The notes under the pieces were generated by a model. That model had not been told where the DNA came from and ran no database searches. It saw only the letters and a list, made by a program, of their open reading frames with translations. A DNA stretch of 64,000 nucleotides from Sphingomonas morindae. GTDB lineage: Bacteria; Pseudomonadota; Alphaproteobacteria; Sphingomonadales; Sphingomonadaceae. Location of the stretch: NCBI RefSeq assembly GCF_023822065.1, contig NZ_CP084930.1, positions 1,442,001 through 1,506,000 on the forward strand, written 5' to 3'. This document shows, piece after piece, positions 38,984 to 63,317 of this stretch (the first letter of the stretch is position 1; each line of letters starts with the position of its first letter). The position numbers and the translations under genes were made by a program.

Positions 38984-39150
38984 TCCTCGGGAACCGCTTG
39001 GCGCCAAGGACGTTCGGCGGCGGTTCACCCCTCAGTCTGCACCGCGCCCTCTGCCTATTTTCTGGGCAGCCGGTAACAATTGCTCAATAATCGGGCGCAC
39101 GATTGGCCGCGTTTCCGCGCGCACCCCGCATGACGCGGGCCTTTTGCCTC

Positions 39151-39165
39151 TGGCACGGCTCTTGC
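39151..39165 (+). promoter_or_regulatory. Sigma-54 promoter of glnK-amtB
   Basis: TGGCACGGCTCTTGC, with C before and T after, matches the RpoN consensus YTGGCACGRNNNTTGCW at every defined position. It lies 34 bp upstream of the glnK ATG, giving a short leader with a GGGGAG ribosome site. This implies NtrC-dependent induction under nitrogen limitation. No convincing full NtrC dyad was recognised, only a TGCACC half-site near 39037. Confidence 0.88.
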
Positions 39166-39198
39166 TGGAAGACAGCGGGAGACAAACAGGGGAGCGGC

Positions 39199-39537
39199 AT
39201 GAAACTCGTCATCGCGATCATCAAGCCCTTCAAGCTCGACGAGGTCCGCGAGGCGCTGTCCGATGTTGGCGTGGCCGGCATGACGGTGACCGAAGTCAAG
39301 GGCTTCGGGCGGCAGAAGGGGCAGACCGAGATCTATCGGGGCGCCGAGTACAGCACCAACATGGTGCCGAAGATCAAGGTCGAGGTCGCCTGTGGCGACG
39401 ATCTCTCGCACCGGGTGGTGGAAGCCATCCAGCAGGCGGCGAACACCGGCGCGATCGGCGACGGCAAGATCTTCGTGCTCGATCTCGCCCAGGCGGTGCG
39501 AATCCGCACCGGCGAGACCGACGATGTGGCGCTCTAA
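39199..39537 (+). CDS. glnK: Nitrogen regulatory PII protein
   Basis: 112 residues, exact family length. Trimeric sensor of 2-oxoglutarate, ATP/ADP and, through uridylylation, glutamine. Seen: MKLVIAIIKPFKLDEVREAL, the T-loop GRQKGQTEIYRGAEY with Tyr51 as uridylylation site, and VLDLAQAVRIRTGE. Linkage to amtB 16 bp downstream marks it as the GlnK type, which blocks the ammonium channel when nitrogen is plentiful. A sigma-54 promoter precedes it. Confidence 0.96.
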   Translation: MKLVIAIIKPFKLDEVREALSDVGVAGMTVTEVKGFGRQKGQTEIYRGAEYSTNMVPKIKVEVACGDDLSHRVVEAIQQAANTGAIGDGKIFVLDLAQAVRIRTGETDDVAL

Positions 39538-45930: not shown

Positions 45931-46383
45931 TCAGAAGGGCTTCACGATCACCAGCAGCACGATCAGGATGGTCGCCAGGCTGGGCACCTCATTGGCCAGC
46001 CGCAGCCCGCGCGTCGAGGCCGGACGCCAACCCCGCGCCAGCTTGCGGCTAAGCCCCACCGCCCAGCCATGATAGGCCGAGAGCAGCAGCACCAGCGCCA
46101 GCTTGGCGTGGAACCAGCCCTGCGCGAAGGCATCGATGTGCAGCGCCAGCGCGAGACCGAGCAGCCACACCGCGATCATCGCGGGGGTGACGATGATCCG
46201 CCGCAGCCGCACCAGGCGCGCCACCCAGGCGCGATCCTCCGGCGATCCGGGCGCGCATTCGGCCTGGTAAATGGCGTAGCGCGGCAGCATGAACAGCCCC
46301 GCCATCCAGAAGATCACGAAGATCAGGTGCGCCGCCTTCACCCAGAGATAGGCCTCGCCCAGCCAGCCCGTCAGCGCCGCCAT
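45931..46383 (-). CDS. hemJ: Protoporphyrinogen IX oxidase HemJ
   Basis: 150 residues with four helices. Seen: YLWVKAAHLIFVIFWMAG with the conserved His, LPRYAIYQAE, FHAKLALVLLLSAYHG and NEVPSLATILIVLLVIVKPF, all conserved in HemJ. It oxidises protoporphyrinogen IX to protoporphyrin IX at the inner membrane in bacteria lacking HemG/HemY. Its ATG overlaps the hemE stop by 1 bp (TGATG), so the two haem genes are coupled. Confidence 0.93.
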   Translation of the reverse strand: MAALTGWLGEAYLWVKAAHLIFVIFWMAGLFMLPRYAIYQAECAPGSPEDRAWVARLVRLRRIIVTPAMIAVWLLGLALALHIDAFAQGWFHAKLALVLLLSAYHGWAVGLSRKLARGWRPASTRGLRLANEVPSLATILIVLLVIVKPF

Positions 46384-47429
46384 CACGCCCCCCGTACCAG
46401 GCTGAGCAGCGCTTCGACATGCGCCACCGGCACTTCGGGCACGATGCCGTGGCCCAGATTGAAGATATGCGGCCGCTCCGCGAAGGCGGCGCGGATCCGC
46501 GCCACGCCTTCCGCCAGCGCCGCGCCGCCGGCGAGCAGCGCCAGCGGATCGAGATTGCCCTGCACCGGCAGCCCGGGCGGCAGCGCCGCATCGGCCCAGG
46601 CCGGATCGACGCTTTCGTCCAGCCCCAGCGCGTCGGCTTCCACCTCGCGCGCATAGGCGGCCAGCCGCCCGCCCGCGCCCTTGGGAAAGCCGATCACCGG
46701 CACGCCGGGGTGGCGGGCGTGGAGCGCCGCGACGATCCGGGCCGCCGGCGCGATCACCCAACGCTCGAACTCGGCCGGGGCAAGGCTGCCCGCCCAGCTG
46801 TCGAACAGCTGCACGGCGTGCACGCCGGCCTCGATCTGGCCCGAGAGATAGTGGATGGTGGCCTCGGTGACCGCCTCGATAATCGCGCCGAACCGGGCCG
46901 GATCGCGATAGGCGAGGCCGCGTGCCGCCGCCTGGTCGCGGCTGCCCTCGCCCGCCACCATATAGGTCGCCACCGTCCAGGGCGCGCCCGCGAAGCCGAG
47001 AAAGGTGGTGGCCGGCGGCAAGGCGGCGGCGACGCGGCGCACCGTCTCATAGACCGGATCCAGCCGCGCCGGCGCGGCGGCGAGATCGGCGAGCTTATGG
47101 TCCGCGAGCGGCGGGGCGAGGCGCGGCCCCTCGCCCGCCACGAAGCTGAGCGTCTGGCCCAGCGCATGGGGGATCACCAGAATGTCGGAGAACAGGATGG
47201 CGCCATCGAAGCCGAAGCGGCGGATAGGCTGGAGCGTCACCTCGGCGGCGGCCTCGGGATCGTAGCAAAGCTCGAGAAAGCCGCCCTTGCTCGCCCGCAG
47301 CGCGCGATATTCGGGAAGATAGCGCCCGGCCTGGCGCATCAGCCAGATCGGCGGCGGATCGCGCCGCGCGCCGCGCAGCACCGCGAGCAGGAGCCGATCG
47401 GGCCTACCCGCGGAAAGATCGGTTCCCAT
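46383..47429 (-). CDS. hemE: Uroporphyrinogen decarboxylase
   Basis: 348 residues. Converts uroporphyrinogen III to coproporphyrinogen III in haem synthesis. Seen: PPIWLMRQAGRYLPEYR, the RQAGR signature; DGAILFSDILVIP; GFAGAPWTVATYMVAG; QLFDSWAG; and GNLDPLALLAG. The ATG at 47429 opens away from the probable origin, the same arrangement as in Caulobacter, where hemE transcription starts within the origin. TATAAG lies about 8 nt upstream of the start. Confidence 0.97.
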   Translation of the reverse strand: MGTDLSAGRPDRLLLAVLRGARRDPPPIWLMRQAGRYLPEYRALRASKGGFLELCYDPEAAAEVTLQPIRRFGFDGAILFSDILVIPHALGQTLSFVAGEGPRLAPPLADHKLADLAAAPARLDPVYETVRRVAAALPPATTFLGFAGAPWTVATYMVAGEGSRDQAAARGLAYRDPARFGAIIEAVTEATIHYLSGQIEAGVHAVQLFDSWAGSLAPAEFERWVIAPAARIVAALHARHPGVPVIGFPKGAGGRLAAYAREVEADALGLDESVDPAWADAALPPGLPVQGNLDPLALLAGGAALAEGVARIRAAFAERPHIFNLGHGIVPEVPVAHVEALLSLVRGA

Positions 47430-47444
47430 CCTTATCCCTTATAT

Positions 47445-47620
47445 GAATCGAAGAATCTGTAGGAGTCAGTAGGCGGCTCCGAACCGGGGTTTATTCAGCG
47501 GCGGCGAATCTGCCAACAGCTTGACGTGGCGCCCCGGCGCGGTCGCCCGCCGAGTCGGTGGCGCCGCCCCCGCTATCCACAGCCTGTGGATAAGCGGCCG
47601 CGGCTGTGGAGAAGAGAGTC
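47445..47620. promoter_or_regulatory. Cluster of six GANTC (CcrM) methylation sites
   Basis: GANTC occurs at 47445, 47453, 47463, 47506, 47552 and 47616. With A and T at roughly 16 percent each, about half a site is expected in 176 bp. Clustering at the origin fits cell-cycle methylation control as known in Caulobacter. Confidence 0.75.
47573..47593. promoter_or_regulatory. Inverted pair of DnaA boxes
   Basis: CTATCCACA (one mismatch) and TGTGGATAA (perfect, minus strand) face each other with 3 nt between. The 8-bp arms 47574-47581 and 47585-47592 are perfect inverted repeats. A third, one-mismatch box in the same orientation as the second follows at 47605-47613. Confidence 0.8.
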
Positions 47621-47695
47621 GAAAAGCAGACGGACAGTGGGGCTGGATCCGTGCTTCGGCTTTGTCACCGGCTTGCCCTGCGGCTACACGGCGGC

Positions 47696-47704
47696 TTATC
47701 CACA
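47696..47704 (+). promoter_or_regulatory. Perfect DnaA box
   Basis: TTATCCACA, the consensus 9-mer, 42 bp before the ppsR ATG. It lies about 100 bp from the inverted pair, leaving a spacer for origin remodelling. Confidence 0.8.
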
Positions 47705-47745
47705 GGCTTGGCCACACAGGCGTCGAAGCCCAGCACGGACCGCGC

Positions 47746-48579
47746 ATGACCAGGCTGCACCTGCATCTCCTTTCCGACTCCACCGGCGAAACGCTGGAGA
47801 ATGTGGCCAAGGCGGGCCTCGCCCAGTTCGAGGGCGTGGAGGCGATCAAGCATTTCTGGCCGATGGTGCGATCCGAAGGCCATCTCGATCGCGTGCTGGT
47901 GGAGATCGCGCAGAAGCCCGGGCTCATCATCTACACGCTCGTCAATTCGTCGGTCCGGCGCCGGCTGGAGGCGCGCTGCGCCGCGCTGGGGCTGAGCGCG
48001 GTGTCCGCGCTCGATCCGGTGATCGAGGCGCTGTCGCACCTGCTCGGCCAGGCGACGATCGGCCGGCCGGGGCGCCAGCATGTGCTCGACGAGGCCTATT
48101 TCGCCCGGGTCGAGGCGATCCACTATACCATCGCGCACGATGATGGCGTCGCCCCCGAGGATTGGGAGGATGCCGATATCGTGCTGGCGGGCGTGTCGCG
48201 CTCGTCCAAGACGCCGACCTCGATCTACCTCGCCAATCGCGGCTATCGCGTCGCCAATATCCCGCTGGTGGTGGAGAGCCCGCCGCCCCCCAACCTCTTC
48301 ACGCTGCGCCGGCCGCTGGTGGTGGGCCTGACGACCAGCCCCGAACGGCTCGTGCAGATCCGGCGCAACCGCCTGCTCTCGCTGAACGAGATGACCGAGA
48401 CCGCCTATGTCGATCAGGATCGGGTGGCGCGCGAGCTGGCCTTCGCCCGGCGCATGTTCTCCGACAATGGCTGGCCGGTGATCGACGTCACGCGCCGCTC
48501 GATCGAGGAGACGGCGGCGGCGATCATCAATCTGGCCAATGAGCGCGAGGATCGCGCCGCCGAAACGGTGGCGCCATGA
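47746..48579 (+). CDS. ppsR: Pyruvate, phosphate dikinase / PEP synthase regulatory protein (kinase-pyrophosphorylase)
   Basis: 277 residues. Bifunctional enzyme that phosphorylates a Thr of PPDK or PEP synthase with ADP and removes it with Pi. Seen: HLLSDSTGETLENVAKA, NSSVRRRLE, the P-loop GVSRSSKTPTSIYLA, the HYTIAHDDG segment and RRSIEETAAAI. ATG 47746 is the first gene to the right of the origin, the RP001 position of other alphaproteobacteria. It overlaps maf by 4 bp. Confidence 0.93.
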   Translation: MTRLHLHLLSDSTGETLENVAKAGLAQFEGVEAIKHFWPMVRSEGHLDRVLVEIAQKPGLIIYTLVNSSVRRRLEARCAALGLSAVSALDPVIEALSHLLGQATIGRPGRQHVLDEAYFARVEAIHYTIAHDDGVAPEDWEDADIVLAGVSRSSKTPTSIYLANRGYRVANIPLVVESPPPPNLFTLRRPLVVGLTTSPERLVQIRRNRLLSLNEMTETAYVDQDRVARELAFARRMFSDNGWPVIDVTRRSIEETAAAIINLANEREDRAAETVAP

Positions 48580-63241: not shown

Positions 63242-63317
63242 GCCCGGGTAGCTCAGTTGGTAGAGCACGTGACTGAAAATCACGGTGTCGGTGGTTCGAT
63301 TCCGCCCCCGGGCACCA
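63242..63317 (+). tRNA. tRNA-Phe (GAA)
   Basis: 76 nt including encoded CCA. Acceptor stem GCCCGGG pairs with CCCGGGC (63307-63313); discriminator A63314. D-arm GCTC-AGTTGGTA-GAGC, anticodon stem CGTGA/TCACG with loop CTGAAAA, giving anticodon GAA; variable loop GTGTC; T-arm GGTGG-TTCGATT-CCGCC. All stems pair fully. Single gene, not part of a tRNA array. Confidence 0.97.

Follow-up and report, generated by a model that had tools for sequence, protein, structure and literature searches.

Does replication of the Sphingomonas morindae chromosome begin in the gap between the divergent genes hemE and ppsR? The stretch analysed here (the window) comprises 64 kb of contig C1 (C1:1442001-1506000; C1 has 3,490,000 bases and the genome 4,237,930 bases in four contigs), and an original prediction, made from its letters, had put a chromosome origin in the gap at window positions 47430-47745, or ~1.4895 Mb of C1. 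With a probability of about 95%, we conclude that this gap is the chromosomal replication origin, a placement supported by gene context, a cluster of DnaA boxes, the least stable element of the window, conservation in relatives and skew at the scale of the chromosome. As an origin it is an expected one, a single well-supported addition to the hemE-type origins already predicted for Sphingomonadaceae. The gap and its boxes are as follows (the alignment is that of 97 family gaps, below).

47430..47745 (316 bases), no strand: probable origin of replication (oriC), the non-coding interval that separates the divergent genes hemE and ppsR (box cluster, conservation, same-genus skew switch)
47573..47581, forward: DnaA box CTATCCACA, one mismatch (pattern match; conserved block in the 97-gap alignment)
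47585..47593, reverse: DnaA box TTATCCACA, perfect, head to head with the box at 47573-47581 (pattern match)
47605..47613, reverse: DnaA box TTCTCCACA, one mismatch (pattern match)
47696..47704, forward: DnaA box TTATCCACA, perfect, ppsR-proximal (pattern match)

A cluster of DnaA boxes and its conservation

Boxes were scored against TTATCCACA, allowing at most one mismatch. The two perfect and two one-mismatch boxes of the original prediction, including an inverted pair 3 nt apart, were all recovered, the spacer inside the head-to-head pair reading GCC. When the gap was shuffled 5000 times with dinucleotides preserved, four such boxes never arose (shuffle mean 0.02), and at least one perfect box arose three times. 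Genome-wide (4.24 Mb) there are seven perfect boxes, two of them in the gap, and a reversed control pattern also gives seven matches; the total is at chance, and the signal therefore lies in the clustering. A sample of 778 kb from the same genome (36 stretches plus the window, covering 1.506-1.680 Mb without break) held 37 boxes with at most one mismatch and no second 316-bp stretch with even two of them. By shuffles and genome sample alike, the cluster exceeds chance, as expected of a hemE-type origin.

The arrangement recurs widely. Among 110 hemE loci, comprising the window and 109 relatives (80 + 29), ppsR was divergent from hemE in 103; at the other seven no ppsR was matched, in at least two cases because the contig ends there, and these were dropped. 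Six loci of the same order but of other families (L150, L151, L153-L156; 0-2 GANTC each) were also excluded, leaving 97 family gaps, which are not independent, as near-duplicates (e.g. L070/L075, L134/L136) were kept. Boxes with at most one mismatch number at least one in 90 of the 97 gaps and at least two in 73, and 49 gaps hold a perfect box; a forward box of this quality (at most one mismatch) past gap nucleotide 200 is found at 74 of these loci. The head-to-head pair with its 3-nt spacer recurs in 37/97 gaps when up to two mismatches are allowed in each box, and in 13/97 when one is allowed. A divergent hemE-ppsR gap was also present at 42 of 51 further loci outside the 110; class-level loci were fetched from 40 of the 72 genomes with a hemE match, G000 not counted. 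Two records labelled ‘Bacillus sp. 2B10’ (L105) and ‘Microvirga sp. SRT01’ (L093) carry sphingomonad-like hemE origins with divergent ppsR (67% and 70% HemE identity, respectively) and are probably mislabelled.

A putative unwinding element beside hemE

Three further elements lie on the hemE side of the boxes.

47432..47471, no strand: candidate DNA unwinding element adjoining the hemE start (least stable 40-mer of the 64-kb window)
47459..47473, forward: GTAGG...GTAGG direct repeat, 10 bp apart, DnaA-trio-like (conserved block, 97-gap alignment)
47490..47496, forward: TTTATTC / TTAT(G/T)C element after GGGG (conserved in the 97-gap alignment)

Ranked by nearest-neighbour energy, the least stable 40-mer begins at 47432, next to hemE, and is likely to be the unwinding element. 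The left 80 bp had been described as relatively A+T-rich, and so they are: A+T content is 49% over 47430-47509 and 58% over 47430-47474, against 30% for the whole window. An unstable, A+T-rich element thus stands beside the boxes, as in hemE-type origins. The alignment also conserves the central and ppsR-proximal boxes, GGGG(A/T)TTAT, TTGCCAACA and, by the unstable stretch, GTWGG. By raw count, GTWGG falls within the first 140 nt of 82/97 gaps, and in 34/97 an R1-like box TGTGGATA, with at most one mismatch, follows it within 6 nt. The GTAGG repeat may serve as a DnaA-trio, and TTTATTC at 47490 is a possible weak DnaA box.

In the basal unwinding system, a short G+C spacer separates a trio repeat from the neighbouring DnaA box. 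The pairing of GTWGG with TGTGGATA in 34 family gaps appears to resemble this system, which excerpts of one account describe as DnaA boxes plus DnaA-trios (PMC10225481). The window differs from those 34 gaps in having no R1-like box after GTWGG, and because this adjacent box is missing, a canonical DnaA-trio or basal unwinding system is only suggestive here.

From this anatomy we infer how the origin would operate. DnaA would bind the four-box cluster at 47573-47704, two boxes of which stand head to head, and would spread leftwards over weaker sites, namely TTTATTC at 47490 and the GTAGG repeats at 47459-47473; the unstable stretch at ~47432-47471 beside hemE would then open, and the helicase would be loaded there. 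The layout matches that published for the family: in the available passages of PMC4741004, the origin described for Sphingopyxis granuli lies near hemE, with a putative unwinding element and conserved boxes, and DoriC is said to predict a near-hemE origin for most Sphingomonadaceae. The likeness extends to a gap by hemE, DnaA boxes, a putative unwinding element and conserved gene order; GANTC, taken up below, is not mentioned in those passages.

Skew, parS and rearrangement at chromosome scale

The original prediction held that GC skew should reach its minimum at the gap. This proved clean in a same-genus genome, G005 (one contig of 4,429,509 bases; hemE-ppsR gap at 8.45-8.82 kb), whereas in the window's own genome it holds only coarsely, with the local minimum 72 kb away. 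In G005, all but one of the 11 samples between 12 kb and 2.23 Mb show positive skew (the odd one is -0.005 at 1.99 Mb; another is +0.0002) and all nine from 2.43 to 4.21 Mb show negative skew, putting the switch at the gap within sampling resolution, and GGGNAGGG polarity agrees with skew except at 1.77 and 4.19 Mb. Measured around the circular chromosome, its parS sites are 13-15 kb from the gap; by pattern, parS was found 6-15 kb from hemE in five of six chosen other one-contig genomes, G005 included, and the same pattern gave none in the sixth, G058.

Eighteen samples of 20 kb over C1 gave negative skew in six of the eight at 0-1.42 Mb, a value near zero at 1.6 Mb, positive skew in all seven at 1.8-3.02 Mb and negative skew in both from 3.2 Mb, with extra samples locating the second switch at ~3.15 Mb. 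In the left arm GGGNAGGG favours the reverse strand and in the right arm the forward strand; the samples at 0.8 and 1.8 Mb depart from this. The first sign change falls in the same region as the gap, at coarse resolution. No dif site matched the consensus with up to three mismatches, so the terminus (ter) is placed by skew and GGGNAGGG polarity alone, at ~3.1-3.2 Mb.

A number of observations weigh against an origin in the gap. Own-genome samples at 0.6, 1.0 and 1.3 Mb are weakly positive and one at 1.7 Mb weakly negative, that is, of wrong or unclear sign, and a sample at 3.30 Mb, beyond the second switch, is positive. The cumulative-skew minimum over 1.36-1.68 Mb lies 72 kb from the gap, at ~1.56 Mb, and two parS sites, at 1.5466 and 1.5484 Mb, are 57 kb from it on the ppsR side. 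Boxes with at most one mismatch are absent from seven of the 97 family gaps, and the window gap is without the R1-like TGTGGATA box after GTWGG. Finally, the account of the own-genome offset that follows, by rearrangement, is comparative and not proof.

Relative to G005, the origin block itself (thiE to ~1.498 Mb) keeps its orientation and corresponds to 4-18 kb there. Left of the origin, the genes at 1.426-1.462 Mb match 92-131 kb of G005, which lies right of its origin, mostly without a change of orientation. The parAB, rsmG, mnmG and mnmE block (1.539-1.557 Mb) runs the other way round and lies on the opposite side of the origin, here the ppsR side; many genes between the moved blocks have no match in the fetched part of G005. 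With several blocks moved, a single simple inversion behind the parS offset was rejected. Judged from these comparisons, local rearrangement near the origin is a plausible explanation for both the blurred skew and the distant parS.

An origin near dnaA was considered and rejected: dnaA is at 2.017 Mb, 527 kb from the gap, and the 20 kb sampled there held three scattered one-mismatch boxes. A dnaA gene far from the origin has been reported for Sphingomonadales (excerpts of PMC8116508).

GANTC sites are concentrated in the origin gap

The gap also holds six copies of GANTC, the motif methylated by CcrM.

47445..47449, no strand: GANTC (CcrM) site 1 (alignment column common to 40/97 gaps)
47453..47457, no strand: GANTC site 2 (motif match)
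47463..47467, no strand: GANTC site 3, overlapping the GTAGG repeat (alignment column common to 30/97)
47506..47510, no strand: GANTC site 4 (motif match)
47552..47556, no strand: GANTC site 5 (alignment column common to 61/97)
47616..47620, no strand: GANTC site 6 (motif match)

At least six GANTC occurred in one of 5000 shuffles of the gap (mean 0.98), and in the own-genome sample, with 0.96 per kb, two out of 2451 tiles (316 bp each) held six. A second own-genome cluster, of seven per 316 bp in sliding windows, was seen at L035:283-820 (C1 ~1586283-1586820); this spot at ~1.5865 Mb is non-coding-looking and lies upstream of an open reading frame whose acyltransferase-like product was recognised by eye.

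The 97 gaps together contain 507 GANTC, or 15.3 per kb, against a shuffle mean of 150 (standard deviation 12). The flanks of the same loci (550 kb, mostly coding) have 2.04 per kb, and seven control palindromes of the same composition have 42-198 sites in the gaps (1.3-6.0 per kb, AGNCT being highest). Rates were also binned for 75 of the 80 loci of one set: the gap has 13.6 per kb, the 300-bp bins on the hemE side 1.3-3.0 and those on the ppsR side 5.6 in the first, 3.6 in one other and 1.0-2.3 in the remaining full bins. Individual gaps contain 3-19 sites in 90/97 cases and only one or two in 7/97; the highest count, 19, comes from two same-genus genomes, and others of the family reach 11-12. 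In G005, 246 bp of the gap carry 11 GANTC, compared with at most six per 367 bp elsewhere in 400 kb sampled.

The positions of these sites vary. The 507 GANTC are spread over 107 distinct alignment columns, and a comparison of eleven close relatives (the window itself, eight members of its genus and two from other genera) gave 1-8 shared columns per pair, except that the near-identical L134 and L136 share all 19. This pattern suggests that GANTC may be selected for number as well as place, with the reservation that gaps this long align imperfectly. In the 42 further gaps outside the family, GANTC stands at 6.6 per kb versus 1.5-3.5 per kb for controls, and the enrichment is therefore class-wide and strongest in the window's family. 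That pooled rate leaves out the nine further loci without a divergent ppsR, which include L196, with 11 GANTC in 700 bp, and L174, which belongs to the window's family. Dense origin GANTC also occurs outside that family: loci L169 and L170, from one genus of another family of the order (G027, G039), have 13 in 469 bp.

Genes of the GcrA and CcrM type are also present. A model of GcrA, a transcription regulator, matched all 40 of the relatives' genomes, own included, and also one of 13 non-Caulobacter controls, unexpectedly Sulfolobus. The RAMA domain, which we take to be carried by CcrM, was found in 39 of the 40, own included, and among controls in Caulobacter only. A motif-enriched origin and a methylase-type gene (RAMA) thus occur together, as would be expected of a Dam/SeqA-like system. 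After firing, the six origin GANTC would turn hemimethylated and stay so until CcrM acted late in the cycle, and the methylation state of the origin could therefore report firing. On this basis we put forward, tentatively and as a rather unlikely possibility, that the dense, position-flexible CcrM array is a once-per-cycle hemimethylation lock like that of Dam and SeqA, evolved separately in Alphaproteobacteria; were this true, the GANTC at 47463, inside the unwinding element, would be one direct target.

The E. coli oriC, subject to Dam/SeqA sequestration, has 11 GATC in ~245 bp. With its 11 GANTC in 246 bp, the G005 gap is similar to that figure in density of adenine-methylation sites; methylase and motif differ, and a reader protein like SeqA is hypothetical here. 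Brassinga et al. (cited in PMC4741004) reportedly described hemE-type alphaproteobacterial origins, Caulobacter Cori among them, and Cori has the hemE context of the window. CtrA sites have the consensus TTAA-N7-TTAA; unlike Caulobacter, the window gap has no such site, and dnaA is far away. A CtrA-silenced origin of the Caulobacter type was rejected, there being no TTAA in the window gap and TTAA-N7-TTAA in just one of 97 family gaps. The Caulobacter origin, like the window gap, contains several GANTC, but its control of initiation does without CcrM (PMC3973325), in contrast to the Dam/SeqA analogy. The repABC origins, too, are rich in GANTC within the origin (excerpts of PMC6090056), and for Agrobacterium ori2 hemimethylation has been proposed to limit re-initiation (excerpts of PMC11514494), but these are RepC-dependent secondary replicons, whereas the origin here is of the DnaA/hemE kind. 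A rise of GANTC around ori is already known (PMC9836097). Among the literature matches listed, mainly open-access, we found no description of GANTC confinement to the sphingomonad origin gap. The sharpness of that confinement offers a way to ask if methylation by CcrM controls initiation at a DnaA-dependent origin in bacteria other than Caulobacter.

Alternative explanations

The boxes might instead form a DnaA-controlled operator of the divergent hemE and ppsR promoters, with replication starting near parS or at 1.56 Mb. Their position between two divergent genes fits this, as do the own-genome skew minimum and parS at 1.547-1.562 Mb; yet the 778 kb sampled, with 1.506-1.680 Mb fully covered, contain no second box cluster at which replication might start, the relatives' parS lie beside the hemE-ppsR gap, where skew in G005 also switches, and the offset in the own genome coincides with moved gene blocks. 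We therefore regard an operator as very improbable, and take the gap to be the origin.

A more serious challenge concerns the methylation sites in a gap that is accepted as the origin: their crowding may be a by-product of GcrA/CcrM-dependent hemE and ppsR promoters, or of a general intergenic excess of GANTC, and to this we give slightly worse than even odds. Caulobacter without CcrM controls initiation normally (PMC3973325), and a promoter site would be expected to recur, as some GANTC columns do in up to 61/97 gaps. Also in keeping with a by-product are the other non-coding-looking spot in the own genome that reaches seven GANTC per 316 bp, and the control AGNCT, likewise raised in the gaps (6.0 versus 1.6 per kb). 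The rate of 15.3 per kb, however, is far above a 1.5-fold excess, with controls at 1.3-6.0 per kb in the same gaps and flanks at 2.0 per kb; 11-19 sites per gap seem beyond the needs of two promoters, and the 11 sites of the G005 gap have no equal in the 400 kb sampled elsewhere, where at most six fall in 367 bp.

Flanking genes and coding status of the gap

The genes bordering the gap were identified as follows.

46383..47429, reverse: hemE, uroporphyrinogen decarboxylase (Pfam URO-D, 4.1e-114)
47746..48579, forward: ppsR, kinase/pyrophosphorylase (Pfam Kinase-PPPase, 7.3e-94)

Pfam matches agree with the gene order first proposed for the flanks (rho-hemJ-hemE and ppsR-maf-aroE-coaE-dnaQ): left of hemE lie hemJ (UPF0093) and then rho, and right of ppsR lie maf, aroE, coaE and a DnaQ-like exonuclease. 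Mechanical open reading frames of at least 100 aa cover 313 of the 316 gap bases, and the gap is taken as non-coding because of where hemE and ppsR alignments start in relatives. The description of the gap as the largest gene-free one in the window was not confirmed, as several longer uncalled stretches remain under crude gene calls; one of these contains a P-II-like open reading frame (38984-39391; product recognised by eye). Elsewhere in the window, a tRNA-Phe (gaa) at 63242-63317 is both the sole tRNA and the sole Rfam match above gathering score.
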